Below, in pieces: positions 1 to 8,509 of a stretch of DNA of 27,303 nt. The translations under genes and the position numbers were made by a program. Every line of letters begins with the position of its first letter. Position 1 is the stretch's first letter. Source of the DNA: a virus; IMG/VR virus record IMGVR_UViG_3300031974_003072, positions 1 through 27,303 of that record; one strand, 5' to 3'. Below the pieces are notes generated by a model. It ran no database searches, was not told the DNA's origin, and saw nothing but the letters and a program-made list of their open reading frames with translations.

Positions 1-76
1 CCGCTACTTCAGTAGCAGTCTCATCAGCATCTAAAAATGCTGAGTGAATTAATGTATACCTTTTTAATGCTTTCAT
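1..76 (-). CDS. Start of an unidentified protein (partial, cut by window edge)
   Basis: The first 25 codons are visible, beginning MKALKRYTLIHSAFLDADET, and the frame runs off the window. The ATG at 76 is preceded by a strong ribosome binding site (AATAAGGAG) and by a promoter-like sequence at 110-137. The RBS contains the 10-mer TAATAAGGAG that is complementary to the hairpin loop of the non-coding RNA at 1164-1882. It is the last gene of the minus-strand run in this window. Product not recognised. Confidence 0.7.
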   Translation of the reverse strand, partial: MKALKRYTLIHSAFLDADETATEVA

Positions 77-109
77 ATTTTTCTCCTTATTATTTAAAAA
101 CATAATATA

Positions 110-137
110 ATTGTATACTCATTAGAATAAAATTCAA
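110..137 (-). promoter_or_regulatory. Sigma70-like promoter for the gene starting at 76
   Basis: On the minus strand TTGAAT (137-132) and TACAAT (115-110) are separated by 16 bases. It overlaps the stop codon of the gene at 134-316 and lies about 35 bases before the next start codon. Confidence 0.45.
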
Positions 138-316
138 CTAGTTTTAGTTAAATAATCAAAATGATGACCGCCCTGACTTAAGTACTTAAACTCACGATCA
201 AACGCGCAAGCCTTACACCATTCTTCTTTTGTCTTAAAGCCATTCTTTTCCCATTCATCTCGAGTATCCTCAAGTTCAAGTTCTAGTTGTTTTGCGTTTT
301 CAAAATCCCAGTTCAT
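134..316 (-). CDS. Small acidic hypothetical protein, 60 aa
   Basis: A charged soluble 60-residue protein, rich in Glu/Asp/Lys in its first half, with a W-C-K-A-C segment near the middle; no known family recognised. The start at 316 has an excellent Shine-Dalgarno (AAGGAGGT) and overlaps the stop of the upstream membrane-protein gene by ATGA, so the two are probably translationally coupled. It ends within the promoter proposed for the gene at 76. Confidence 0.75.
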   Translation of the reverse strand: MNWDFENAKQLELELEDTRDEWEKNGFKTKEEWCKACAFDREFKYLSQGGHHFDYLTKTS

Positions 317-471
317 TTTCTACCTCCTTTTTGTTCTGAAACAAGTATTGAAGAGCCAATTGCAAATGCAGCAGCTCCTATTAATAATAACATACCAAAG
401 AAGTCTAATCCTGCGATTAGACCCACCACTATAAAGATGGCTGACGCCACCATGAATATTTTAGTTCGCAT
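313..471 (-). CDS. Small membrane protein, 52 aa, two TM segments
   Basis: Begins MRTKIFMVAS and contains two hydrophobic stretches (about residues 5-22 and 25-46) followed by a short polar tail ending QKGGRK, so it is predicted to be a two-span inner-membrane protein. A G-rich RBS (GGGGG) lies just before the ATG. Its start overlaps the end of the preceding gene and its stop overlaps the next start (ATGA). Function unknown; small membrane proteins of this kind are common in early regions of T4-like phages. Confidence 0.7.
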   Translation of the reverse strand: MRTKIFMVASAIFIVVGLIAGLDFFGMLLLIGAAAFAIGSSILVSEQKGGRK

Positions 472-598
472 AAAGCACCCCCATTAATAAAAACCAAGCA
501 AGCAATACAAAGCCACTTCCTAAAACAACCCACTCATATGGATCATTTCTATCAAATGGGCCCCAAATTGCTTCCATTATCTTATTCTTTCTTTTCAT
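461..598 (-). CDS. Small membrane protein, 45 aa, one TM segment
   Basis: Begins MKRKNKIMEA, has a polar N-terminal half and one hydrophobic C-terminal segment (about residues 22-43), so a single-span membrane protein is likely. The RBS GGAGGAG precedes the ATG at 598. It is the first gene of a three-gene coupled unit (598 to 134). The stop overlaps the start of the next gene by 11 bases. Function unknown. Confidence 0.7.
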   Translation of the reverse strand: MKRKNKIMEAIWGPFDRNDPYEWVVLGSGFVLLAWFLLMGVLYAN

Positions 599-631
599 GT
601 TCTCCTCCTATTTAATTTTGAACATAATATT

Positions 632-660
632 ATTTTAATTACTTTTTAACTTTATTACAA
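632..660 (-). promoter_or_regulatory. Possible promoter for the small-gene operon 598-134
   Basis: TTGTAA (660-655) and TAAAAT (637-632) on the minus strand, 17 bases apart, in a gene-free stretch directly upstream of the first gene. The boxes are imperfect and the surrounding AT-richness makes chance matches likely. Confidence 0.35.
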
Positions 661-668
661 CTTTGCTA

Positions 669-696
669 TTGATCGTAAGGAAGAATTCATTATAAT
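669..696 (+). promoter_or_regulatory. Sigma70-like promoter, plus strand
   Basis: TTGATC (669-674) and a perfect TATAAT (691-696) are separated by 16 bases. It would drive the plus-strand gene at 758 and is divergent from the minus-strand operon starting at 598. The stretch 599-757 otherwise contains no gene. Confidence 0.5.
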
Positions 697-757
697 AAAT
701 GAAAGGTTATTGTTACTGCAGAGACATAAGCCACATTCTAAAGTCAGGAGTGAATAA

Positions 758-853
758 GTGGAATGGGTACGAGAGAAATTAAAAGCAATAATAGACACAA
801 TTAATATTATAATCTGGTTCATAGGACTAGCTACAATAATAGGGTTTATCTGA
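758..853 (+). CDS. Micro membrane protein, 31 aa, GTG start
   Basis: A 31-residue frame reading (V/M)EWVREKLKAIIDTIN followed by a hydrophobic segment rich in I, F, L and ending GFI. The GTG at 758 has AGGAG seven bases upstream. The charged head plus one hydrophobic helix resembles small phage membrane proteins; no family assigned. It stops just before the promoter at 857, so it and the next gene are separately or jointly transcribed. Confidence 0.5.
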   Translation: MEWVREKLKAIIDTINIIIWFIGLATIIGFI

Positions 854-856
854 GGG

Positions 857-884
857 TTGCATTTTTGTAAAAAGGGTCTATAAT
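857..884 (+). promoter_or_regulatory. Strong sigma70-like promoter, plus strand
   Basis: TTGCAT (857-862), 16-base spacer, perfect TATAAT (879-884). The expected start of transcription is near 891, only about four bases before the ATG of the gene at 895, giving an almost leaderless transcript. Confidence 0.65.
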
Positions 885-894
885 ACTCCGTATT

Positions 895-1029
895 ATGGAT
901 ATTTTAATTATGGGTGCAGGTTTTTGGATAGCGATGAGGGTACTTACTCTCATGGAAGTTCTATTCGGTGTTAAACCTAAACGAACATATAACAGACCAT
1001 CTAAGAAAGATCCTTTTAGGTGGACCTAG
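895..1029 (+). CDS. Small membrane protein with basic tail, 44 aa
   Basis: Starts MDILIMGAGF, with a hydrophobic segment over residues 1-26 and a basic C-terminus (residues 27-44, many K/R). No Shine-Dalgarno is visible before the ATG at 895; the promoter at 857-884 places the transcript start only a few bases upstream, so leaderless initiation is possible. An internal ATG at 910 is an alternative. An intrinsic terminator follows at 1075. Function unknown. Confidence 0.5.
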   Translation: MDILIMGAGFWIAMRVLTLMEVLFGVKPKRTYNRPSKKDPFRWT

Positions 1030-1074
1030 TCATCAACTTTTAGTATACCACTCCTTACTAAAGTTGGGCCAAAG

Positions 1075-1100
1075 GGGCAGCGAGCAGCTGCCCTTTTTTT
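1075..1100 (+). terminator. Intrinsic terminator ending the plus-strand small-gene unit
   Basis: GGGCAGC (1075-1081), loop GAGCA, GCTGCCC (1087-1093), followed by seven T residues. A textbook Rho-independent terminator on the plus strand, convergent with the minus-strand RNA gene whose own terminator lies at 1161-1191. Confidence 0.9.
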
Positions 1101-1121
1101 GTGTGTATGAAAAAAGCCCCA

Positions 1122-1150
1122 ATATTATAAAATTCCCCCACAAAGTGCAA
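1122..1150 (-). promoter_or_regulatory. Promoter-like copy of the TTGCAC/TATAATATTG family
   Basis: On the minus strand TTGCAC (1150-1145) is followed after 15 bases by TATAATATTG (from 1129), the same arrangement as at 1952 and 3051. It lies just beyond the terminator of the non-coding RNA and would fire towards the 3' end of the plus-strand gene at 895-1029. No gene is visible downstream, so it may make an antisense transcript. Confidence 0.4.
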
Positions 1151-1156
1151 CTGTTT
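1144..1156. repeat. 13-bp direct repeat flanking the non-coding RNA gene (copy 1)
   Basis: AGTGCAACTGTTT occurs here and again at 1911-1923, one copy on each side of the non-coding RNA. Each copy contains a -35 hexamer (TTGCAC on the minus strand), so the repeat may reflect shared promoter sequence or a cassette boundary. Confidence 0.6.
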
Positions 1157-1160
1157 TTTT

Positions 1161-1191
1161 AAACAAAAAAAAGCAGCTCTTGCGAGCTGCT
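1161..1191 (-). terminator. Intrinsic terminator of the non-coding RNA
   Basis: Perfect 8-bp stem AGCAGCTC (1172-1179) / GAGCTGCT (1184-1191) with a four-base loop. In the minus-strand reading it is followed by a run of T, visible as an A-tract at 1165-1172 on the plus strand. Confidence 0.9.
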
Positions 1192-1882
1192 CTTCCCATC
1201 AATTATCTAATAAGGAGGTAATATGATGTAAAAACTTAGGTGGCAGGATACTTTTCACCCCTGCCGTATTTCAATTACTCGCTAAAGCAATTCAGGATCC
1301 AGGTCCGCGCGAAGATAGGGGTACTTCAGTTATCGTACGTTCTGATATCACCTACTACTGCCTTTCGGTGTAAGTTCGCATCTACAAGGGAGCTCTACTT
1401 ACGCTTTCAACGCTTATAATTTGCTGTCCTGTTACGAGGATAACCTCTTAGCTCGCTAAAGTCAAGAGGGTCCTAATAAACTCTCAAGGGGGGCCTATGT
1501 AGTAAGATTCTTTTCTATTTCGAATCGACTAGTAAGCTCAATCGCGTTTATGCTGAGCTGCTGTCAATGCTGTATCATTAAGATCGGCATCGCTACTAAT
1601 ACGGTGTACGTGTATCCAGCTCTTCGGCGTACTCTTTAAACCTGCTTTAGGTCCCGCTTTAACTTTCGATTCTAATAGATCACCTACGACCTACATCTTA
1701 GCACCTACTACCACCTACGTCATCGTCTCGGATATGCTAGTCCGTCTCTGTTGACTACGGCCCATGGGGTGTGGCAAACATCAAGCCCTCCAGCTCTAAC
1801 GTCCTGACTCTTTGTATTTCAACTCAAGTTTAAACGTTAAACTACCTTCAGCGCGCCCCAGTAATAGTGGCCCCATCTAAGT
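1164..1882 (-). ncRNA. Large structured non-coding RNA candidate, about 720 nt
   Basis: No plausible protein is encoded here, yet the segment has a promoter (1889-1917), an intrinsic terminator (1161-1191) and visibly higher G+C than the genes around it, as expected of a structured RNA in an AT-rich genome. Many helices can be read in the minus-strand RNA: AGUUUAA/UUAAACU near the 5' end, UAGUC/GACUA, ACCU/AGGU, AGCUCA/UGAGCU, GAUUC/GAAUC, AAUUGCU/AGUAAUU, GGCAGG/CCUGCC, and a bulged 9-bp hairpin at 1197-1228 displaying CCUCCUU. GUAGGU is repeated five times. In size and setting it recalls the giant phage-associated RNAs GOLLD and ROOL, but I cannot show membership. It does not match tmRNA or rRNA by eye. 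Confidence 0.72.
1197..1228 (-). other. Anti-Shine-Dalgarno hairpin in the non-coding RNA
   Basis: In the minus-strand RNA, CAUCA-U-AUUA pairs with UAAU-UGAUG (9 bp, one bulged U). The 13-nt loop (1206-1218) reads CCUCCUUAUUAGA. CCUCCUUA equals the 3' end of bacterial 16S rRNA. The loop 10-mer CUCCUUAUUA is perfectly complementary to TAATAAGGAG in the ribosome binding sites of the genes starting at 76, 2334 and 11355. It lies directly before the terminator hairpin. Confidence 0.7.
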
Positions 1883-1888
1883 GTTCAT

Positions 1889-1917
1889 ATTGTACGCCCT
1901 TTTTTATTCGAGTGCAA
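1889..1917 (-). promoter_or_regulatory. Sigma70-like promoter of the non-coding RNA
   Basis: On the minus strand TTGCAC (1917-1912), 17-base spacer, TACAAT (1894-1889). Transcription would start near 1882. Confidence 0.7.
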
Positions 1918-1923
1918 CTGTTT
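1911..1923. repeat. 13-bp direct repeat flanking the non-coding RNA gene (copy 2)
   Basis: Second copy of AGTGCAACTGTTT (first at 1144-1156). It overlaps the -35 box of the RNA promoter. Confidence 0.6.
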
Positions 1924-1930
1924 ATTTATA
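1923..1930 (-). promoter_or_regulatory. Possible T4-type late promoter
   Basis: TATAAATA on the minus strand, the T4 late promoter core, about 40 bases upstream of the proposed start of the non-coding RNA. It could allow late transcription of the RNA, but in this AT-rich spacer a chance match is possible. Confidence 0.35.
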
Positions 1931-1951
1931 AAAATATAATTAAAAAAAAGG

Positions 1952-1980
1952 TTGCACTTTACTACAAAATATTATAATAT
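1952..1980 (+). promoter_or_regulatory. Promoter P1 of the C-free cassette
   Basis: TTGCAC (1952-1957) followed by TATAATAT (1973-1980); spacing is 15 bases to TATAAT or 17 to TAATAT. The 19-bp palindrome at 1987-2005 lies at the expected start of transcription. Apart from C2000 a transcript starting at about 1987 contains no C until 2854. Confidence 0.65.
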
Positions 1981-2009
1981 TGCGCGAATAAGAATGATTC
2001 TTATTTAGA
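1973..2009 (+). repeat. 37-bp direct repeat bounding the C-free cassette (copy 1)
   Basis: Bases 1973-2009 and 2844-2880 are identical over 37 bp (offset 871). The unit comprises TATAATATTGCGCG plus a 19-bp palindrome. The C-free tract lies almost exactly between the C residues of the two copies. Confidence 0.95.
1987..2005 (+). promoter_or_regulatory. 19-bp perfect palindrome, operator candidate (copy 1)
   Basis: AATAAGAATGATTCTTATT, a perfect 9-1-9 inverted repeat just downstream of the -10 box, the classic place for a repressor site. By eye it matches the E. coli Fur box consensus at 12 of 19 positions and has the Fur 6-1-6 form (AAGAAT-G-ATTCTT), but a phage repressor is equally possible. 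Confidence 0.6.
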
Positions 2010-2074
2010 TTTAATTAATTTGTATTTGTAGTAGTAATGGGTTATAATTAGATTTTAATTAAATAAGGAGTATT

Positions 2075-2281
2075 ATGTATTATTTTAAATTTGTTTATAA
2101 TTTTGTTTATATTAGTTTTGTTTTTTTAAAATTGAAATTAAATAATAATAAAAATGATATATTTTTGGATTTTGAATTAGATTATAATAAATTATATATT
2201 GATATGAATATTGATGATGATTATAATAATATAATTGGTTATGAGTTTTTTTTAAATTGTTTAGATTTTTTTAATTTGTAA
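2075..2281 (+). CDS. C-free gene, 68-aa hypothetical protein
   Basis: Starts MYYFKFVYNFVYISFVFLKL; the first 20 or so residues are hydrophobic and aromatic, the rest is Asn/Asp/Tyr-rich. The ATG at 2075 has a good RBS (AATAAGGAG). Because the coding strand lacks C, the protein uses only 15 amino acids and has no Ala, Pro, Thr, His or Gln. The N-terminus could be a membrane anchor. First gene after promoter P1. No homologue recognised; composition bias would hide distant similarity. Confidence 0.7.
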   Translation: MYYFKFVYNFVYISFVFLKLKLNNNKNDIFLDFELDYNKLYIDMNIDDDYNNIIGYEFFLNCLDFFNL

Positions 2282-2333
2282 TTAATTTAAATTTAGTATA
2301 TAATTAGATTTTAATTTTAATAAGGAGTAAATT

Positions 2334-2717
2334 ATGTTTAGAGTATTTTTTTATGAAAATTGTAGAGGTTTTGAAGATATAAAAGATATTAGTGATGATT
2401 ATAAAATTGATGATGTTGAATTATTGAAGAAGAAATTGTTTGATGATTTTGTTGATGTAGAGATTATTAGTAGTTGGTTTAATGAAAATATTAATGATGT
2501 TAATGTTGATATGGTTGTTGATTATGATAATGAAAAGGGAATTGGTTTATTAAATATTAGTGAAGAGTTGGGTGTTTGGTTTTATAAAAATGAAGATAGT
2601 ATTTTTGAAAATAAGAATTTAAGTGATAGTGATATTGTATTAGTATTAGAATGTTATTTGTATGATTTAAATTTAGAAGATATTAATAAAAGAATATTTG
2701 ATATAGTAGAGAGTTAA
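2334..2717 (+). CDS. C-free gene, very acidic 127-aa protein, possible DNA mimic
   Basis: Starts MFRVFFYENCRGFEDIKD and has 32 Asp/Glu against 12 Lys/Arg by hand count, spread along the protein. It contains no Ala, Pro, Thr, His or Gln, as forced by the C-free coding strand. The acidity is not forced, since Lys codons are also C-free. The ATG at 2334 has the RBS TAATAAGGAG (2318-2327). Small, strongly acidic early phage proteins are often DNA mimics (Ocr and ArdA families); a segment around residues 58-82 (VVDYDNEKGIGLLNISE) loosely recalls ArdA, but this is only a suggestion. The uninterrupted 127-codon frame, despite TAA/TAG being favoured by such composition, argues that it is translated. 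Confidence 0.8.
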   Translation: MFRVFFYENCRGFEDIKDISDDYKIDDVELLKKKLFDDFVDVEIISSWFNENINDVNVDMVVDYDNEKGIGLLNISEELGVWFYKNEDSIFENKNLSDSDIVLVLECYLYDLNLEDINKRIFDIVES

Positions 2718-2728
2718 TTAATTAATAG

Positions 2729-2779
2729 GTGGGAAAAATAATTGATAAAGTAGTTGATTTATTTAAAGAAAGAATATAA
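2729..2779 (+). CDS. Possible 16-aa amphipathic peptide
   Basis: A GTG-started frame reads (V/M)GKIIDKVVDLFKERI and stops within the -10 box of promoter P2. It is C-free, amphipathic in pattern, and resembles the peptide at 2795-2842, which lies in the second 69-bp repeat unit. The RBS is weak, so this may be chance. Confidence 0.25.
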   Translation: MGKIIDKVVDLFKERI

Positions 2780-2784
2780 TATTG
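2747..2784 (+). repeat. 69-bp tandem promoter repeat, unit 1
   Basis: AAAGTAGTTGATTT (2747-2760) followed by TATAATATTG (2775-2784). The same two blocks recur 69 bases downstream at 2816-2829 and 2844-2853. Confidence 0.75.
2754..2780 (+). promoter_or_regulatory. Promoter-like element P2
   Basis: TTGATT (2754-2759), 15 bases, TATAAT (2775-2780), the same geometry as P1. Its -35 is C-free (TTGATT instead of TTGCAC). It lacks the palindrome. Confidence 0.45.
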
Positions 2785-2794
2785 GGGGATTTGG

Positions 2795-2842
2795 TTGAGT
2801 GAGAAAATAAATGAAAAAGTAGTTGATTTTTTAGTTGTTTGA
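2795..2842 (+). CDS. Possible 15-aa peptide
   Basis: A TTG-started frame reads (L/M)SEKINEKVVDFLVV, preceded by a G-rich stretch (GGGGGA) at suitable distance, and stops just before the -10 box of P3. It shares the K-x-V-V-D-(L/F) core with the peptide at 2729-2779. Too short to be certain. Confidence 0.22.
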   Translation: MSEKINEKVVDFLVV

Positions 2843-2853
2843 ATATAATATTG
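2816..2853 (+). repeat. 69-bp tandem promoter repeat, unit 2
   Basis: Second copy of the AAAGTAGTTGATTT / TATAATATTG pair, ending where the C-free tract ends. Confidence 0.75.
2823..2849 (+). promoter_or_regulatory. Promoter-like element P3
   Basis: TTGATT (2823-2828), 15 bases, TATAAT (2844-2849), followed by the second copy of the palindrome. It would transcribe into the AGTCTCC repeat region; no gene lies downstream on this strand. Confidence 0.5.
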
Positions 2854-2880
2854 CGCGAATAAGAATGATTCTTATTTAGA
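2844..2880 (+). repeat. 37-bp direct repeat bounding the C-free cassette (copy 2)
   Basis: Identical to 1973-2009. It marks the downstream edge of the C-free tract. Confidence 0.95.
2858..2876 (+). promoter_or_regulatory. 19-bp perfect palindrome, operator candidate (copy 2)
   Basis: Same sequence as at 1987-2005 and at the same distance from its -10 box. Confidence 0.6.
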
Positions 2881-3023
2881 ATATTTATATATTATTTTTA
2901 TGTTTATTTTATTTTAATTTTATCCCAATTTCATTCTAATCGGGGGTCTTCTGAGGGCGCGAGTCTCCCCCGGGGGGCAACTTTTTGCAGGAGACTTTCT
3001 GAGGGGAGCGGTGGTTTGCCAGA

Positions 3024-3038
3024 TAAGAATGAGTCTTA
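3024..3038 (-). promoter_or_regulatory. Variant copy of the operator palindrome
   Basis: Plus-strand TAAGAATGAGTCTTA differs by one base from the core TAAGAATGATTCTTA of the 19-bp palindrome. On the minus strand it lies downstream of the TATAATATTGCGG box at 3056-3044, mirroring P1. Confidence 0.55.
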
Positions 3039-3050
3039 ACTAGCCGCAAT

Positions 3051-3077
3051 ATTATACTATCTCGACCAAAAGTGCAA
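3051..3077 (-). promoter_or_regulatory. Minus-strand promoter of the TTGCAC/TATAATATTG family
   Basis: TTGCAC (3077-3072), 15 bases, TATAAT (3056-3051) followed by ATTGCGG and an operator-like palindrome. It fires towards repeat copy 2 and the C-free cassette, so it could produce an antisense RNA. Confidence 0.5.
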
Positions 3078-3231
3078 CTTCTGAGGGTACTAAAAGTCTC
3101 CCGAATGTAGGAGACTTAGGAACGGGGGGCTAGCAGTAGCGTAGAGCTCTAGCTGATATCATAGGACATGCCTAATTCGACAGCGCCTGAAGCCCGCCTA
3201 GAAAGTCTCCTCAGAGTCTCCCGAAAAGTCT

Positions 3232-3298
3232 CCTAGAAAGTCTCCCGATTCTACTCTTAGCGGTTCGGTTAGGAACCAAAGTAGGAGACTTTCCTAGG
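3232..3298 (-). other. Long hairpin at the start of a proposed minus-strand RNA
   Basis: CCTAG-AAAGTCTCC (3232-3245) pairs with GGAGACTTT-C-CTAGG (3284-3298), 14 bp with one bulged C, enclosing an inner GGTTC/GAACC hairpin. The promoter at 3302-3330 would start transcription near 3295, inside the first arm. Confidence 0.6.
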
Positions 3299-3301
3299 TA
3301 T

Positions 3302-3330
3302 ATTATAACCTATTCTCGAGGAGATATCAA
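3302..3330 (-). promoter_or_regulatory. Sigma70-like promoter facing the repeat array
   Basis: On the minus strand TTGATA (3330-3325), 17-base spacer, perfect TATAAT (3307-3302). It lies just after the stop codon of the gene at 3333-3587 and points into the gene-free repeat region, suggesting a non-coding transcript. Confidence 0.55.
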
Positions 3331-3332
3331 CT

Positions 3333-3587
3333 CTATAGAGCTGTTATATCTTGCCCATCGACAACAATCTTCTCGACCGTGTAATGGTTTCCAAGATGAT
3401 CTCTAGTAACCGATCCGTCCTCGTCGACATAAACATTACAACCAATGCGCTCGGCAATAGAGTCAAAGGCCATCTCCATAGCATCATTACTGCCATTAAG
3501 TAGAAGCTGACACTCTTTGCCATTAAGAGCTTCAGTATGTACAATGGTTGTTGCGATATGTTCTAATTCTATATAATGTTGTTTCAT
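3333..3587 (-). CDS. Hypothetical protein, 84 aa
   Basis: Begins MKQHYIELEHIATTIVHTEA; soluble, mixed charge, ends QDITAL. No family recognised. It has its own strong promoter (3608-3636) and RBS (AAGGAG) before the ATG at 3587, and it is the last protein gene of the minus-strand run before the non-coding accessory region. Separate promoter and RBS suggest early, independent expression. Confidence 0.75.
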   Translation of the reverse strand: MKQHYIELEHIATTIVHTEALNGKECQLLLNGSNDAMEMAFDSIAERIGCNVYVDEDGSVTRDHLGNHYTVEKIVVDGQDITAL

Positions 3588-3607
3588 AGTATTCTCCTTA
3601 TCACTCT

Positions 3608-3636
3608 ATTATAGGGGCGTTAAGTCTAGAATGCAA
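3608..3636 (-). promoter_or_regulatory. Strong sigma70-like promoter for the gene at 3333-3587
   Basis: TTGCAT (3636-3631), exactly 17 bases, TATAAT (3613-3608) on the minus strand, about 20 bases before the start codon. Confidence 0.8.
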
Positions 3637-3680
3637 CGGTTTTATCAGCGGAGAACTTCAGAAAAAATAGTTGCCTTTTC

Positions 3681-3713
3681 TTAGCGAGGGCGCTTAGACC
3701 CCCTGTCGAACAT
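3681..3713 (-). CDS. Possible 10-aa peptide or leader ORF
   Basis: ATG at 3713 with a good RBS (GGGGAGA) reads MFDRGSKRPR then stops. It lies in the 250-base gap between the oxygenase gene and the gene at 3333-3587. The RBS is better than expected by chance, but so short a frame cannot be proven coding; it may be a leader peptide or a remnant. Confidence 0.25.
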   Translation of the reverse strand: MFDRGSKRPR

Positions 3714-3735
3714 ATATTTCTCCCCTTATCTACCT

Positions 3736-3758
3736 GTGTCTCTCCTATTATTAGACAC
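3736..3758 (-). other. Hairpin displaying AGGAG in its loop
   Basis: In the minus-strand RNA GUGUCU pairs with AGACAC (6 bp) around an 11-nt loop AAUAAUAGGAG. It lies downstream of the oxygenase gene. It could act as an RNA element exposing a ribosome-binding-like sequence; role unknown. Confidence 0.35.
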
Positions 3759-3839
3759 CTCTTTATGATACACCGTAGTATTATTTATTTAATTATTTAA
3801 AAAATAACGAAATTACGCTCTCTGTGGGTTTGCGCGGTC

Positions 3840-4406
3840 TCATGACTCCACGGTATCTACAAAGAATTGTAGTGATCTCCGTACTTTATCACGTTCCCAT
3901 ACCGGTGTACAACCATGAAGTCTAGGTGCGTATAATACTATTGTTCTATTGAATGTCGGTATGTTTATGTCTATACCATCGTTATCGTTATATACATAGT
4001 TCCATGCACCCCAGTCCTTATCCCAATACTGATTCATAAACAGAGTAACACCTATATAATGACCTCTATCACTATGAGGAGCTATACCACCTAGTCTATC
4101 TACATGATGTCTTATCTCATGAGCACCGTATATTACTTTACATTGTTTAGGAAAGTCTTTATCATACTCTCTTATTGTATTGATTACCTTACGGCCTATC
4201 TCTTTGACTAGGTCATTAGGTTTATATTGATTAATATGGAAGTGATTATGTTTCTCAGGCCAATCTACAACTGTCTTATAGTTAGACTTATGAAACATTG
4301 AGTCTATATTGTATTGTTCTAAGTCTTTTACTGTGTTATCTATTATTAGACACTTTCCACAGTTCGGAATAGTTACAATGTCTGATATGTCCTTCTTCTG
4401 TTTCAT
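3840..4406 (-). CDS. 2OG-Fe(II) oxygenase family protein, 188 aa
   Basis: The C-terminal half carries the double-stranded beta-helix signature of Fe(II)/2-oxoglutarate dioxygenases: HSD at residues 111-113 (metal ligands), a distal His at about 164 (RLHG) and an Arg at 176/177 (KVRRSLQFF) for 2-oxoglutarate binding. Members hydroxylate proteins or small molecules; such genes are widespread in marine T4-like phages, usually with unknown substrate. The start at 4406 lies inside the preceding gene (71-base overlap) in another frame. Target cannot be inferred. Confidence 0.8.
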   Translation of the reverse strand: MKQKKDISDIVTIPNCGKCLIIDNTVKDLEQYNIDSMFHKSNYKTVVDWPEKHNHFHINQYKPNDLVKEIGRKVINTIREYDKDFPKQCKVIYGAHEIRHHVDRLGGIAPHSDRGHYIGVTLFMNQYWDKDWGAWNYVYNDNDGIDINIPTFNRTIVLYAPRLHGCTPVWERDKVRRSLQFFVDTVES

Positions 4407-4518
4407 ATATAAATTGCATTCCTAATAGTTGAATGACTTTACCGGTTGACTCTCTCTGGAAAGCCGGCTCTTTATGTACTATAATGTCGCCTATGTTAGG
4501 TTTCTTAGTCTTCGCCAT
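4336..4518 (-). CDS. Hypothetical protein, 60 aa
   Basis: Begins MAKTKKPNIGDIIVHKEPAF; the spaced hydrophobic/glycine pattern over residues 8-40 suggests a small SH3-like beta barrel, which is a guess. Its start overlaps the previous gene by 14 bases and its end overlaps the oxygenase gene by 71 bases. No known family assigned. Confidence 0.6.
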   Translation of the reverse strand: MAKTKKPNIGDIIVHKEPAFQRESTGKVIQLLGMQFIYETEEGHIRHCNYSELWKVSNNR

Positions 4519-4615
4519 TGTTTACTACGTTTCTAAGGAGTTCTATGAGCTCTTGTACGGTAGCTATGTCTTGGCTATTCTCTGTATCTATTTCTGCTTC
4601 TATCTTTATTTTCAT
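4505..4615 (-). CDS. Small hypothetical protein, 36 aa
   Basis: MKIKIEAEID continues to a helix-forming C-terminus ending VNNGED. The ATG overlaps the stop of the preceding frame by ATGA, the style used throughout this genome, and its own end overlaps the next gene by 14 bases. The chain of couplings on both sides supports it as a real gene. Function unknown. Confidence 0.55.
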   Translation of the reverse strand: MKIKIEAEIDTENSQDIATVQELIELLRNVVNNGED

Positions 4616-4833
4616 GATAATATATCGGGCTCCCATGACTCTATCGTCGATACCTCTATGTCTATCATTGGACCTTTAGCTGATTTAACGATGAGCTTGT
4701 CGCCTTGTTGTTTGTTAATAAGTACGCCCTGTAATGTAACGTTCTCCTTATGCGTATTTTCCGGTGTGGTTAACGAGCGAAAGGTTATAGTAACGTATCC
4801 GTCTTTGAGCGCTTGTTCTAGTTTCTTATCTAT
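4612..4833 (-). CDS. Hypothetical 73-aa protein with apparent AUA start codon
   Basis: An open frame reads (I/M)DKKLEQALKDGYVTITFRS and ends SWEPDILS. No ATG, GTG or TTG occurs in frame before codon 53 or so, and an in-frame TAA lies just upstream. AAGGAG (4844-4839) sits five bases before an ATA (4833-4831) which overlaps the upstream stop codon as ATAG, just where this genome normally has ATGA. The simplest reading is initiation at AUA (ATC just upstream is an alternative). The sequence looks like a small beta-rich phage protein, similar in style to DUF2693, not confirmed. Its stop is coupled to the next gene by ATGA. Confidence 0.55.
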   Translation of the reverse strand: MDKKLEQALKDGYVTITFRSLTTPENTHKENVTLQGVLINKQQGDKLIVKSAKGPMIDIEVSTIESWEPDILS

Positions 4834-5099
4834 GATTGCTCCTTACTCTTTATATGGCTTACTACCTGGGGTTCGAAGTATACTTCGCTTCTCTCTGCGG
4901 CGGCGGGACCTTCGGTCATATAATTAAATAACCACATCTTTCTGATGGTTGCTAGTACAAAGAAGATCAAGGTACATAACGTTGCAAAGATTAAGGGGTC
5001 GGCGTCGTTAAGTAGTACGAAGAGTATGTAGTTGGCCGGGAAGTTGATAGCTGTTCCTATGATAGTATCGTACATAGAGAACTTAAACCCTTTGTTCAT
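4830..5099 (-). CDS. Membrane protein, 89 aa, two TM segments
   Basis: Begins MNKGFKFSMYDTIIGTAINF; hydrophobic segments at about residues 11-30 and 35-52, then a charged C-terminal tail. The pattern FKFSxxDTIIGTxINFPxNY is typical of a small membrane protein family of marine phages (I think DUF7220, uncertain). It overlaps the preceding gene by 17 bases. Role unknown; possibly membrane modification during infection. Confidence 0.7.
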   Translation of the reverse strand: MNKGFKFSMYDTIIGTAINFPANYILFVLLNDADPLIFATLCTLIFFVLATIRKMWLFNYMTEGPAAAERSEVYFEPQVVSHIKSKEQS

Positions 5100-5403
5100 A
5101 CGTTACTCCATAAACACCACGCATCTGTGGTTTAGTATCTAGCGTCTTCTTATTGATATTATCGTACTTCTCATTAAGTCTAGGTAGATACTTATCGATA
5201 AGTCTATCTTCGTACTGAAGCACTTCTATTTCAGTACGCATTGCCGGATATACTAACCATTCAAACGTAAAGTTCTCAGGCTCATTCTCTAGTGCCTTTC
5301 TGAACTTAGTCATAGTATAATTAAGCTCTCTTGCCCCTCTATGGTTCATCTCAAGCTTAGTTAAACCACATGACGTTGATCCTACGTATACTATATTGTT
5401 CAT
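5083..5403 (-). CDS. GIY-YIG-like nuclease-fold protein, 106 aa
   Basis: Residues 3-9 (NIVYVGS) followed by a helix with Arg resemble the second half of the GIY-YIG motif; the first half (GIY strand) is missing or degenerate at the N-terminus, so catalytic activity is doubtful. The start overlaps the stop of the S21 gene (ATGA). GIY-YIG proteins in T4-like phages are often homing endonucleases or their relatives. Could instead be a structural homologue without nuclease function. Confidence 0.55.
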   Translation of the reverse strand: MNNIVYVGSTSCGLTKLEMNHRGARELNYTMTKFRKALENEPENFTFEWLVYPAMRTEIEVLQYEDRLIDKYLPRLNEKYDNINKKTLDTKPQMRGVYGVTYEQRV

Positions 5404-5648
5404 CTTCTTCTGTATACCATTCTTTCAGATCTTAGCTGCTTGGCTAGTCTCTTTTCTGCTTCTGCTTTCTTTCTCTTACGTTTGGCCGTTGGCTTCTCGT
5501 AAAACTCTCTCTTTCTGCATTCTTGAATAATACCAGATCTCTCTGTCTTCTTCTTGAACTGACGCATCAGCATATCAAACGTAGGTTCTCTACGCTGTTT
5601 GTTTTTGTTGAAGCTCTTCTGAAACTTCGGTCTTGGTCTTCTTATCAT
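5400..5648 (-). CDS. rpsU: Phage-encoded ribosomal protein bS21
   Basis: Residues 24-60 match the bS21 core: FDMLMRQFKKKTERSGI, then ECRKREFYEKPTAKRKRKK, against the bacterial FDxxLRRFKRxxEKAG and RRREFYEKPTxxRKRxK. The tail is very basic, as usual. The 82-residue length is close to bacterial bS21 with an N-terminal extension. bS21 binds the 30S platform beside the 3' end of 16S rRNA and affects translation initiation; viral copies are known from marine phages and may replace host bS21. It overlaps its upstream neighbour by 59 bases and is coupled to the next gene (ATGA). Confidence 0.92.
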   Translation of the reverse strand: MIRRPRPKFQKSFNKNKQRREPTFDMLMRQFKKKTERSGIIQECRKREFYEKPTAKRKRKKAEAEKRLAKQLRSERMVYRRR

Positions 5649-6114
5649 ATTTTTCTATCTTTAAGTTAAATAATGAATATTTAAAAATATTCTCCCAATA
5701 AGAATCATCACTTTCTACATACATAGTATCTTTGAAGTAAAGATCCTCAATCTTTATTATAGTACCAGCGTCCATAAAAGTCAAGTTTAATCCTGTCTTT
5801 TTTAATCTCTCATAGCATTCATAATCGTTAACAACAAGTATTTTTATATCTTTGTCGATTAACTTAACCTCCTGCATAAGCTGATCGTTGTATTCATCGT
5901 CTCTAGTTATTACAATACCATCAACAGGCTTATATAACGTTCTCTGTATAGATGGATGCTTATATAGATCTTGTTCTATATTATATACACCTGGAATACC
6001 ATTAGGAAACTTAGGGTCTTTCATAAACACTCTATTATGAGGAGTAAGGCATTGCCATATTTGATACCCTAAGGGATTATATACTCCATATATTATAAGA
6101 TTGCGTTTATTCAT
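5590..6114 (-). CDS. Hypothetical protein, 174 aa
   Basis: Begins MNKRNLIIYGVYNPLGYQIW; AAAGGA lies eight bases before this ATG, so it was preferred to longer versions. The N-terminal beta strand followed by a glycine turn (IIYGVYNPLG) suggests a Rossmann-like fold, and another strand-like segment (DIKILVVNDYE) occurs near the middle. It lies downstream of a GlcNAc-transferase-like gene and may act in the same sugar pathway, which is inference. Its end overlaps the S21 gene by 59 bases. Confidence 0.65.
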   Translation of the reverse strand: MNKRNLIIYGVYNPLGYQIWQCLTPHNRVFMKDPKFPNGIPGVYNIEQDLYKHPSIQRTLYKPVDGIVITRDDEYNDQLMQEVKLIDKDIKILVVNDYECYERLKKTGLNLTFMDAGTIIKIEDLYFKDTMYVESDDSYWENIFKYSLFNLKIEKYDKKTKTEVSEELQQKQTA

Positions 6115-7096
6115 ACTTAACATCCTTTGCAAAGGATACATCTATTGTAGCTTTAGATGAGTCAACAACAGTAACGTTTCTTACATCTAAACCTGTTTCA
6201 TTTTCAAATTGCTGTAGATTTCTCTTCTCACCTAGCCTATAATGCTTACCCATGTTACTACTATCGTTAATCATCTCTTTCATTCTATTATGACTGCTTC
6301 TTCTCATCTTACCAGCTTGAGCATGATCATCCCAATGTTGAGGTCTATATTTGGTTTCATCAGTCGTATAAAGATGGTATGTAGGGTTATTAGGTATATG
6401 ATATACATCTATATTATGCGTAAACAACTTAAGAGCTATGGAGAGCTCATCTTCTTCAAAGTAATAATGGTTATCATAAGGGACTCTCTTTACAAATTCA
6501 GAAGATGCAAAGATCATACCTCCGCTTACAAAGTGCCCTCTAATAGCAGAAGAGCTATCAGTTTTATTAAGAATTTGCCTACAATAATATCCATCTATAA
6601 AAGCTTTACCTTTTATAATTTTTATTGTAGTAGTATCAGTAGAGTATCTATGTTTACCCTCTTCTGTAAAAGAATTAGGATATGAAGATAGTACTATATC
6701 ATCAGGTTTATGTTGTTGATTACTAAATTTTACTTTAGTTTCATGGATATTAAAATATTGTTGAAGGAGATTATAATCCCATGCTTTATCAAATAATGTA
6801 TGTGAGTCTATTTGAAAATAGAATGGCTCATCTAGATATAATTGTTGACATACTGCTCTTGCCCATGCACACCCTCTTGCACACTTTGGAGGCATATGAA
6901 TATATCTTAACTCAGCTCCATACTTTTCACACAGTCTTTTTAGTCCTTCTGTTTGATTTTCTGACTGCTCTACTATTCCTACAACTAATAAATCTGGCTT
7001 TGATGCGTTCTCAAGCAAATTATCTACAGTTTGATACAATAATTTATCTCTGTAGCTTACGATTGATACAAATATCTTATTCGGTAATGTACTCAC
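6107..7096 (-). CDS. GlcNAc-transferase-like glycosyltransferase (GT60/PF11397 type)
   Basis: The N-terminus (KIFVSIVSYRD), the Cys-rich CARGCAWARA segment at residues 72-81 and FYFQIDSHTLFDKAWD (residues 92-107, with a D-x-H metal motif) are typical of the GlcNAc-type GT-A family related to Skp1 glycosyltransferase. It probably transfers a sugar from a nucleotide sugar to protein, such as a virion component. The GTG start at 7096 has AGGA in front and overlaps the epimerase end by 20 bases. Length 329 aa, normal for the family. Confidence 0.8.
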   Translation of the reverse strand: MSTLPNKIFVSIVSYRDKLLYQTVDNLLENASKPDLLVVGIVEQSENQTEGLKRLCEKYGAELRYIHMPPKCARGCAWARAVCQQLYLDEPFYFQIDSHTLFDKAWDYNLLQQYFNIHETKVKFSNQQHKPDDIVLSSYPNSFTEEGKHRYSTDTTTIKIIKGKAFIDGYYCRQILNKTDSSSAIRGHFVSGGMIFASSEFVKRVPYDNHYYFEEDELSIALKLFTHNIDVYHIPNNPTYHLYTTDETKYRPQHWDDHAQAGKMRRSSHNRMKEMINDSSNMGKHYRLGEKRNLQQFENETGLDVRNVTVVDSSKATIDVSFAKDVKYE

Positions 7097-7829
7097 TTAT
7101 GTCCTCAGTTAAAATGTTATGCTTAGGCTTCCATCCTAATGACTCTAGTACGAAAGAGTTAGCACAAGTATATGTTGCTTCACCTTCTACTTCTTTATAC
7201 GGGTATGGACCTTTTCCATAGTATTCTACTACTTCTTCTACAGTACAAGGCTGGCCTGAACCTACATCGATAGCTCCAGTTATATCTTCTCCTTCTTCTA
7301 GTAGTAGCATAATAGCATCTGTTACGTCATCTACATGAGTCCAATCTCTAGTATGATCAGTTACATACTTAATTCTATCTTTAAGTAGTTTATCAAAGAA
7401 CATATCACCTCTAGAGCCTGGTCCATACACAGTAAAGAAGCGTAATCCTAATGATCCTTCTGGTGCAATAGCTTCCATAGCCTTTTTAGTCATTGAATAA
7501 GGTGACTTCCACCATTGATAGATAGACGATGAGGAGGCATACAGTATCTTAGTATTGGGTCCCCACACAGTCTCAAAGACTTTCTTAGATCCATCTACAT
7601 TTACCGACCAATACTCATCAGGTTGAAGATGTGATTGTCTTACACCCGCCATGGCAGCAAGATGAATAACAAAATCGTAACCATAAGGCTGTACATTATT
7701 AGCACATGACTCATCTATATCTCTTATATCACCTATGTGCTTATGAACTTCATGACCTGCATTTAATAACTTATCATTTAAGTTAGATCCAATAAAGCCT
7801 TCTCCTCCAGTTAAAAATATTTTAGCCAT
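7077..7829 (-). CDS. NAD-dependent nucleotide-sugar epimerase/dehydratase
   Basis: Extended short-chain dehydrogenase: nucleotide-binding GGEGFIGSN at residues 8-16, DFVIHLAAMAG around 53-63, and a catalytic-type Y-S-M-T-K motif near 111-115, plus LRFFTVYGPGSRGD. At 250 aa it is shorter than GalE-type enzymes (about 330), the C-terminal substrate region being reduced. It likely interconverts UDP- or dTDP-sugars for the neighbouring glycosyltransferases. Exact substrate cannot be assigned. Confidence 0.88.
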   Translation of the reverse strand: MAKIFLTGGEGFIGSNLNDKLLNAGHEVHKHIGDIRDIDESCANNVQPYGYDFVIHLAAMAGVRQSHLQPDEYWSVNVDGSKKVFETVWGPNTKILYASSSSIYQWWKSPYSMTKKAMEAIAPEGSLGLRFFTVYGPGSRGDMFFDKLLKDRIKYVTDHTRDWTHVDDVTDAIMLLLEEGEDITGAIDVGSGQPCTVEEVVEYYGKGPYPYKEVEGEATYTCANSFVLESLGWKPKHNILTEDISEYITE

Positions 7830-8109
7830 ATAGCTTCTCCATTAAATTATTTACCAATAGGATTAAACCTACACCATTGACTGTAATAAGAGCTCTATCG
7901 TTCCAGATAATAGATACAATAAGCCATAAACCAATACCAACAATAGAAAGATATAAATCTATATCTGAATTAATACCTCTATATGACATTGCTACTAATA
8001 CAAATATAGATGCAACCCATTTAAGATACCAATCAACAGTATACTTAGGTGTTGCTGACTTAAATATTCGCTTACTATTTTCTATCTCTTCTTTACTAAA
8101 CTTCGTCAT
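7822..8109 (-). CDS. Membrane protein, 95 aa, about three TM segments
   Basis: A charged N-terminus (MTKFSKEEIENSKRIFKS) is followed by hydrophobic segments near residues 29-43, 53-68 and 73-88. It overlaps both neighbours by a few bases, indicating coupled translation. The arrangement resembles small membrane proteins found beside phoH/nuclease genes of marine T4-like phages. Function unknown. Confidence 0.65.
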   Translation of the reverse strand: MTKFSKEEIENSKRIFKSATPKYTVDWYLKWVASIFVLVAMSYRGINSDIDLYLSIVGIGLWLIVSIIWNDRALITVNGVGLILLVNNLMEKLYG

Positions 8110-8509
8110 AAAACATCTCCACGAGTTTATCTTCCATTAAATATGCTTCTTTTTCCCAAGGTGAGCCTCTATATGATACGTTAGAGTAGTTTATACCCTT
8201 CCATACAGGCTTGCTTGGATTAATTTGACCTTTTATATATTGTTTTGCATGAATAAGCTCATGCGCTATAGTAAGAGCTACGTCTCTGATAGGAACTCTT
8301 TCTCCATCTATCTCTTTAGCTATAGTTATGTCAGCAAAGTTTCTATCACCTACACATTCTCCAGCATTTTCTAAATCTTTAGAGAACTCTATAGCAATGA
8401 ATATCTCTCTTTTATAGGGATAAGGAAGAAGATGCATAATAACATCTTCTACAAACTTAACTATTTTCTCTTTTTGCTTTATTTTACCAAAGACTTCAAA
8501 CGCTATCAT
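8096..8509 (-). CDS. Zinc metallopeptidase-like protein, 137 aa
   Basis: Contains the zincin motif HExxH as TIAHELIHAKQY (His-Glu-Leu-Ile-His near residues 83-87) and a downstream EKEAYLMEDKL where a third ligand Glu could lie, as in SprT-like or putative phage peptidases. The 137-aa length suits a minimal domain. Substrate unknown; phage proteins of this type may process virion or DNA-bound proteins. Start overlaps the nuclease stop (ATGA). Confidence 0.75.
   Translation of the reverse strand: MIAFEVFGKIKQKEKIVKFVEDVIMHLLPYPYKREIFIAIEFSKDLENAGECVGDRNFADITIAKEIDGERVPIRDVALTIAHELIHAKQYIKGQINPSKPVWKGINYSNVSYRGSPWEKEAYLMEDKLVEMFYDEV

Follow-up and report, generated by a model that had tools for sequence, protein, structure and literature searches.

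A marine T4-like phage carries an 853-b tract in which two genes, with their leaders, spacers and promoter-like sequences, contain no C on the sense strand. Coding tracts of this kind recur in other phages, and the absence of C is maintained in homologues while the encoded proteins diverge; both conclusions are well supported. We tentatively interpret the tract as a selectively maintained three-letter transcription unit, whose message could be transcribed when CTP is scarce or poisoned.

An 853-b tract without C

The window, which is the whole 27,303-nucleotide stretch of DNA analysed here, is a linear IMG/VR fragment of a T4-like phage whose primase is 43-44% identical to the primases of Sinorhizobium phage phiM12 and of cyanophages. 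Relatives at ~93%, 85% and 70% DNA identity exist; their contigs stop short of the tract, all of the related contigs L006, L007, L002 and L003 ending before it.

A base count bears out the original prediction that the plus strand lacks C throughout 2001-2853: the tract has 380 T, 321 A, 152 G and no C, and the second-longest C-free run in the 27.3-kb window is 52 b. The chance of an 853-b run is ~10^-80 at the window's C content of 19.4% and ~10^-60 when its lowest-C 500-b block (15%) is used. The chance first proposed, 0.95^853 or 10^-19, is correct as arithmetic but greatly overstates what chance could do. TRF gave only short, weak repeats, so the tract is no tandem array and differs from the tandem-repeat or low-complexity C-free DNA of hosts. 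Equal-length stretches elsewhere hold a mean of 24.4 G:C-containing palindromic 4-mers and the tract holds none, in line with the predicted loss of such palindromes. We took the kind to be at least 400 nt of C-free, non-repetitive sense strand with ORFs; here it comprises 853 b and two ORFs. Within window positions 1-4500 there is no second copy of the tract, only of its 37-bp flank, and Rfam returned nothing above gathering score for window positions 1-6000.

Table 1 Features in and around the C-free tract of the window.
Feature	Coordinates	Strand	Basis
Promoter-like P1, TTGCAC-N15-TATAAT, with C, outside tract	1952..1978	+	Sequence; activity inferred
Left copy of 37-bp direct repeat TATAATATTGCGCGAATAAGAATGATTCTTATTTAGA (-10 box and 19-bp palindrome)	1973..2009	+	Repeat search
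Palindrome AATAAGAATGATTCTTATT; as RNA a predicted 5' hairpin	1987..2005	+	Sequence, folding
C-free tract: two genes, leaders, spacers, tandem promoter-like boxes (sense strand)	2001..2853	+	Base count
C-free promoter-like TTGTAT-N17-TATAAT upstream of gene 1	2020..2048	+	Read from sequence; weak consensus match
C-free gene 1, 68 aa; no family match above curated cut-off	2075..2281	+	ORF list, family searches
C-free promoter-like TTGTAA-N17-TATAAT upstream of gene 2	2276..2304	+	Sequence
C-free gene 2, 127 aa, net charge -20	2334..2717	+	ORF list, charge count
C-free tandem promoter-like TTGATT-N15-TATAAT, first	2754..2780	+	Sequence
C-free tandem promoter-like TTGATT-N15-TATAAT, second; -10 inside right 37-bp repeat	2823..2849	+	Sequence
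Right copy of 37-bp direct repeat	2844..2880	+	Repeat search
Facing promoter-like TTGCAC-N15-TATAAT	3051..3077	-	Sequence

Both genes (Table 1) are preceded by AAGGAG, at 2065-2070 and 2322-2327, and the 127-codon frame is intact behind its ribosome binding site, as had been noted; at the tract's stop frequency of 12.3% per codon, the probability of that given frame staying open is 7e-8. Ala, Pro, Thr, His and Gln are missing from both proteins, as the original prediction said and as follows necessarily from the missing C. The protein of gene 2 has no Pfam or PHROG match at a meaningful E-value, and these searches gave no sequence match to DNA-mimic families of the Ocr/ArdA/Arn type; its AlphaFold2 model (pLDDT 48) is too poor for a fold reading of this highly charged protein. 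A protein search of IMG/VR with gene 2 and its 84-aa neighbour returned no relatives. Isolated phages hold no protein relative of gene 2 and no DNA-level relative across the tract, the only matches being short and AT-rich (E ~0.1-0.4).

The reported contrast between TTGATT boxes inside the tract and TTGCAC in P1 holds, and C is present in the TTGCAC-type promoter-like sequences that lie outside the tract. On both sides the tract is flanked by a perfect 37-bp direct repeat, absent from the original prediction. The palindrome AATAAGAATGATTCTTATT within this repeat is a candidate operator or stabilising stem-loop, and a third, diverged palindrome lies at 3024-3038 beside the facing promoter-like sequence. 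The promoter-operator pattern had no match in IMG/VR. If P1 is used, with a start near 1986, the message would contain a single C, C2000, which lies in the palindrome and is predicted to be paired (0.92).

Two neighbouring regions have few long ORFs. On the minus strand, 1160-1925 has ~740 b without long ORFs and is a possible large noncoding RNA (folding z -1.55), with a promoter-like TTGCAC..TACAAT on one side, near 1920, and on the other, near 1195-1165, a strong hairpin resembling a terminator; it has no Rfam match above gathering score. The ORF-poor region 2940-3300 contains many mutually pairable GTCTCC/GGAGAC and CTGAGG repeats and may be a structured RNA (folding z -1.65).

C-free coding tracts recur in phages and, nearly C-free, in a mobile element

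The search for long one-base-free tracts that had been proposed was run on IMG/VR as two pattern scans, one for a ribosome binding site and ATG followed by C-free DNA, and the other, without the ribosome binding site, for C-free DNA downstream of three short motifs. They added ~20 contigs whose C-free tracts, roughly 400-1,900 b long, are coding and non-repetitive; these contigs derive from numerous different metagenome data sets and from different phages. Tract lengths include 1890 b (L045), 1493 b (L011), 1487 b (L059), 1354 b (L070), 1140 b (L012), 1121 b (L054), 1077 b (L064), 746 b (L010), 735 b (L072), 652 b (L069), 544 b (L013), 537 b (L063) and 497 b (L067); L080 (563 b) and L081 (1079 b) were found later by homology search. 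Ten flanking proteins were tested, and five of them had a match to a phage portal, terminase, baseplate or ribonucleotide reductase family. Some tracts have Shine-Dalgarno leaders and others, such as L045, have none. Many of the encoded proteins are small, strongly acidic and without a known family, as expected for counter-defence or takeover genes. Isolated phages hold no protein relatives of the L010 or L045 proteins. In L011 a second, divergent unit of 252 b is C-free on the other strand; at 870-1187 of this contig the divergent units, each without C on its own sense strand, have a shared promoter region between them.

Repeats and noncoding or generally skewed sequences (L044, L052, L047, L051 and L058) were left out of the list of coding tracts, and L066 was set apart as skewed overall, though used below as one terminator example. 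L044 (1-2410) and L052 (6919-9451) are C-free over 2.4-2.5 kb, G- and T-rich, with repeated motifs and no long ORFs. L047, L051, L058 and L066 are contigs or loci with a very strong C/G skew (6-11% of one base and 25-27% of the other), in which single C stand between C-free genes. Both groups possibly represent different phenomena.

The element L053 is circular and 8.3 kb long (1-8409, with a 99-bp terminal repeat) and has 34 C in all. Its larger genes all lie on one strand and are nearly without C there, with several C kept within single genes. Two of its proteins are serine recombinases matching Pfam Resolvase (9e-19 and 9e-35); plasmids hold no relatives of its 556-aa protein. Fourteen of its 18 coding C fall in Gln, Thr, Ala or His codons, at the residue-making position or beside it, and some occupy conserved positions, one being the Q in YCRISSEMQ, which aligns to YTRVSTTNQ of TP901-1 integrase. 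That a few C are tolerated, in graded fashion, where the residue requires them suits a cost paid for each C better than a complete ban.

In host genomes the picture is different, within the sensitivity of motif-based scans, so that the C-free coding kind looks specific to viruses and mobile elements. The ribosome-binding-site pattern gave 27 matches in 84,980 host genomes, nearly all of them tandem repeats; the rest were L025 and L033, classed as artefacts, and L038, a generally AT-rich clostridial contig. In 296 genomes of one bacterial phylum, the 200-base C-free runs among the matches listed were short-period repeats, and the L045 family (see below) was not found in 395 genomes of one bacterial phylum. 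L033, in the Mangrovicoccus ximenensis genome, has patches like bisulfite-converted foreign DNA in which C occurs mostly only before G. L025, in the Streptomyces stelliscabiei genome, is a purine-rich 7 kb, nearly C-free and with no evident ORFs, that adjoins a normal GC-rich stretch; this C-poor, noisy contig end is probably a sequencing artefact. Such cases exist, and we therefore considered bisulfite-treated DNA, base-calling failure or chimeric assembly as sources of the tract. An artefact of this type is very unlikely, and would surprise us greatly: in contrast to L033 and L025, the tract has ordinary C on both flanks and intact ORFs with ribosome binding sites, C-free genes from different data sets share protein homology, and L053 has true recombinases.

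The positions of the tracts bear on another explanation, stealth DNA: first-entering DNA that carries anti-restriction genes and lacks every site containing both G and C would escape most restriction and cytosine-directed attack. On contigs of at least 20 kb, 11 of 17 tracts are no more than 3 kb away from a contig end, against 2.5 expected; assembly may account for this excess, and permuted ends are expected in a T4-like phage such as the present one. The loss of all G:C palindromes, where about 24 4-mers would be expected, and the many acidic proteins, possibly DNA-mimic-like, also speak for it. Site avoidance does not need the loss of every C, however, the remainder of each genome is ordinary, and several tracts end at terminators. 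We consider this explanation unlikely.

Homologues stay C-free while their proteins diverge

We next considered whether C stays absent when these genes diverge. Gene 2 of the window has a single relative, a distant C-free homologue encoding a 110-aa protein in L011 (29% identity over 82 aa). The L045 family is more informative: a search with degenerate codons that permit C found six loci (L078-L083), three of which re-find L045, L064 and L072, and all six have no C in the gene. These relatives are 41-89% identical, and homologue pairs differ at 71-167 positions, none of them involving C, so the alignment of homologues suggested in the original prediction shows substitutions that stay C-free. 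Homologues with ordinary C, which would have spoken against the prediction, were sought and none was found, the contigs of the nearest phage relatives ending before the tract. Homologues elsewhere thus stay C-free, gene 2 by one distant relative and the L045 family strongly. The family's fold model is of moderate quality (pLDDT 69), and nothing in the PDB matched it with an E-value better than 0.2.

The L045-family proteins are under purifying selection, with pN/pS of 0.18-0.32 in the three closer pairs (C left out of the count). At conserved two-fold sites of the family, A<->G changed at 21 of 120 and T<->C at 0 of 164 (P 5e-9, approximate as pairs share sequences). T<->C changes freely in an ordinary gene, at 15 of 63 sites between PhoH of the window phage and of its relative L007, and therefore a factor other than the protein excludes C. 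The proposal of a natural, functional C-less cassette is in this way supported, and both the independent cases and the continued lack of C in homologues make it much stronger.

That factor could be mutation instead of selection: a deaminase or a copying error that directs C-to-T change to the non-template strand would keep a transcribed unit C-free. By base counts, the tract has the composition of the usual sense strand of the phage genome with C turned to T, and the constraint follows the sense strand, silent sites included. The coding content argues otherwise. C-to-T conversion of ordinary window genes gives 3.8 stops per 100 codons, so that 4.8 would be expected in 127 codons, where none is seen. 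In the L053 recombinase, consensus Ala or Thr is replaced by Leu, Gly, Asn, Ser, Val, Cys or Glu, and never by Val from Ala nor Ile or Met from Thr, the outcomes of a simple C-to-T change (10 positions, one of which kept Ala; a small sample). C persists in terminator stems, and the cytidine deaminase family PF00383 is absent from 19 records, most of them fragments. The open frames and substituted residues disfavour a simple C-to-T product, one of the options first raised, and we regard mutation as an improbable cause.

The C-free unit resembles a transcript

Spacers, leaders and internal promoters are C-free as well as genes, and this excludes a codon or tRNA explanation. The tracts of L050, L059, L066, L067 and L069 end at a hairpin with a U-rich tail, their first C lying within the stem; those of the L045 family end at a long, strong hairpin (GAGAGGATATTATATATA...TATATATAATATTCCTTCTC) with the first C in the 3' arm, and L010 has a terminator-like hairpin made of A:U pairs only. 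Mean folding energy at the tract ends is lower than in 200 of 200 swapped-flank controls. As several tracts end at a terminator hairpin, the C-free unit looks like a transcript.

These features would also be expected if a host defence or a phage shut-off cut or deaminated single-stranded C in RNA, messages being immune where C is absent or hidden in stems. Besides the transcript-like shape and the C in terminator stems at several 3' ends, the C at 5' ends are predicted to be paired: C2000 of the window is one example, and the four C of the L010 leader GGGCGAAGCCC are paired at about 1.0. The strong claim that the only C sit in hairpins is weakened by the swapped-flank control, since pairing of boundary C is moderately raised, at 0.856 against 0.777 (sd 0.030), a modest excess. 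L053 moreover keeps several C within single genes, to our knowledge there is no C-specific defence RNase, and our literature search named none. Attack on unpaired C is thus somewhat unlikely.

A message that is unstructured or proof against Rho is a further candidate: without G:C pairing and without a C-rich Rho loading site, transcription and translation would run uninterrupted. Rho needs C in RNA, and the genes are small and stand behind host-type promoters. C-free RNA, however, folds no less than its own shuffles (z 0.02), which goes against the unstructured mRNA of the original prediction, and a lower C content would do; total loss of C, at the cost of five amino acids, is unneeded. This explanation seems to us a poor prospect.

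A proposed message made without CTP

The original prediction listed several meanings and expressed no preference among them; our favoured reading is transcription without CTP. Host-type promoters would drive two small accessory genes, the second strongly acidic, and the whole body of the mRNA would be C-free, with the pressure acting on the RNA and not on protein or codons. CTP may be scarce or poisoned through, for example, chain terminators of the ddhCTP type, a CTP-depleting defence or the phage's own takeover, and counter-defence or takeover genes could thereby stay transcribable. Several findings count against this reading. The C in leaders (C2000 of the window if P1 is used, and the four of L010) argue against a strictly CTP-free message and suit attack on unpaired C better. 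In L011 the C-free stretch extends over the promoter, upstream of the presumed start. These phages also show no tie to a gene of CTP metabolism, there being no cytidine deaminase in the 19 records, from which the C5 methylase family is absent too.

The G-less and C-less cassettes of in-vitro transcription are laboratory constructs on which RNA polymerase runs without one NTP. They resemble the phage tract in being a transcribed stretch that lacks one base; they are man-made, whereas the phage tract is natural, protein-coding, conserved and recurrent. Prokaryotic viperins are defences that make ddhCTP and poison transcription at C, and a defence of this sort would be expected to select exactly such C-free messages; phage escape from viperin by loss of C was not found in the literature searched. 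ACA-less mRNA, used with MazF, is free of an RNase motif and likewise evades an RNase by its sequence, but it loses the motif only, whereas C-free tracts lack one base altogether across 0.4-1.9 kb, spacers and promoters included. Phage genes also undergo base-specific, directed change through diversity-generating retroelements; these act on adenines of a short variable repeat, and they retain both a template repeat and a reverse transcriptase. Here it is C that is absent, and no template/variable repeat pair was found near the tract (window 1-4500). AvcID is a toxin-antitoxin defence with a dC deaminase, and is alike in acting on cytosine nucleotides. It targets deoxycytidines (PMC10511110). 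Loss of C from one DNA strand would not spare the other strand.

Full-text searches of the open-access literature found no description of natural C-free genes. Of the four bases, only C is dispensable to a bacterial gene, since A, T and G are required for ATG, the stop codons and GGAG. It is possible, though we put this forward with reserve, that a CTP-free expression programme is maintained by phages from several groups of hosts and by one or more circular mobile elements; its C-free counter-defence or takeover operons would mark a widespread immunity or shut-off that targets CTP or C in RNA. Genes that give up five amino acids, yet are kept so while their proteins diverge, point to a strong force, selective or mutational, that acts on viral messages. 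Identifying the agent behind the loss of C could bring a new form of immunity or takeover to light and would make long C-free sense tracts a simple signature for hunting counter-defence genes, and the genes themselves offer natural proteins built from 15 amino acids.
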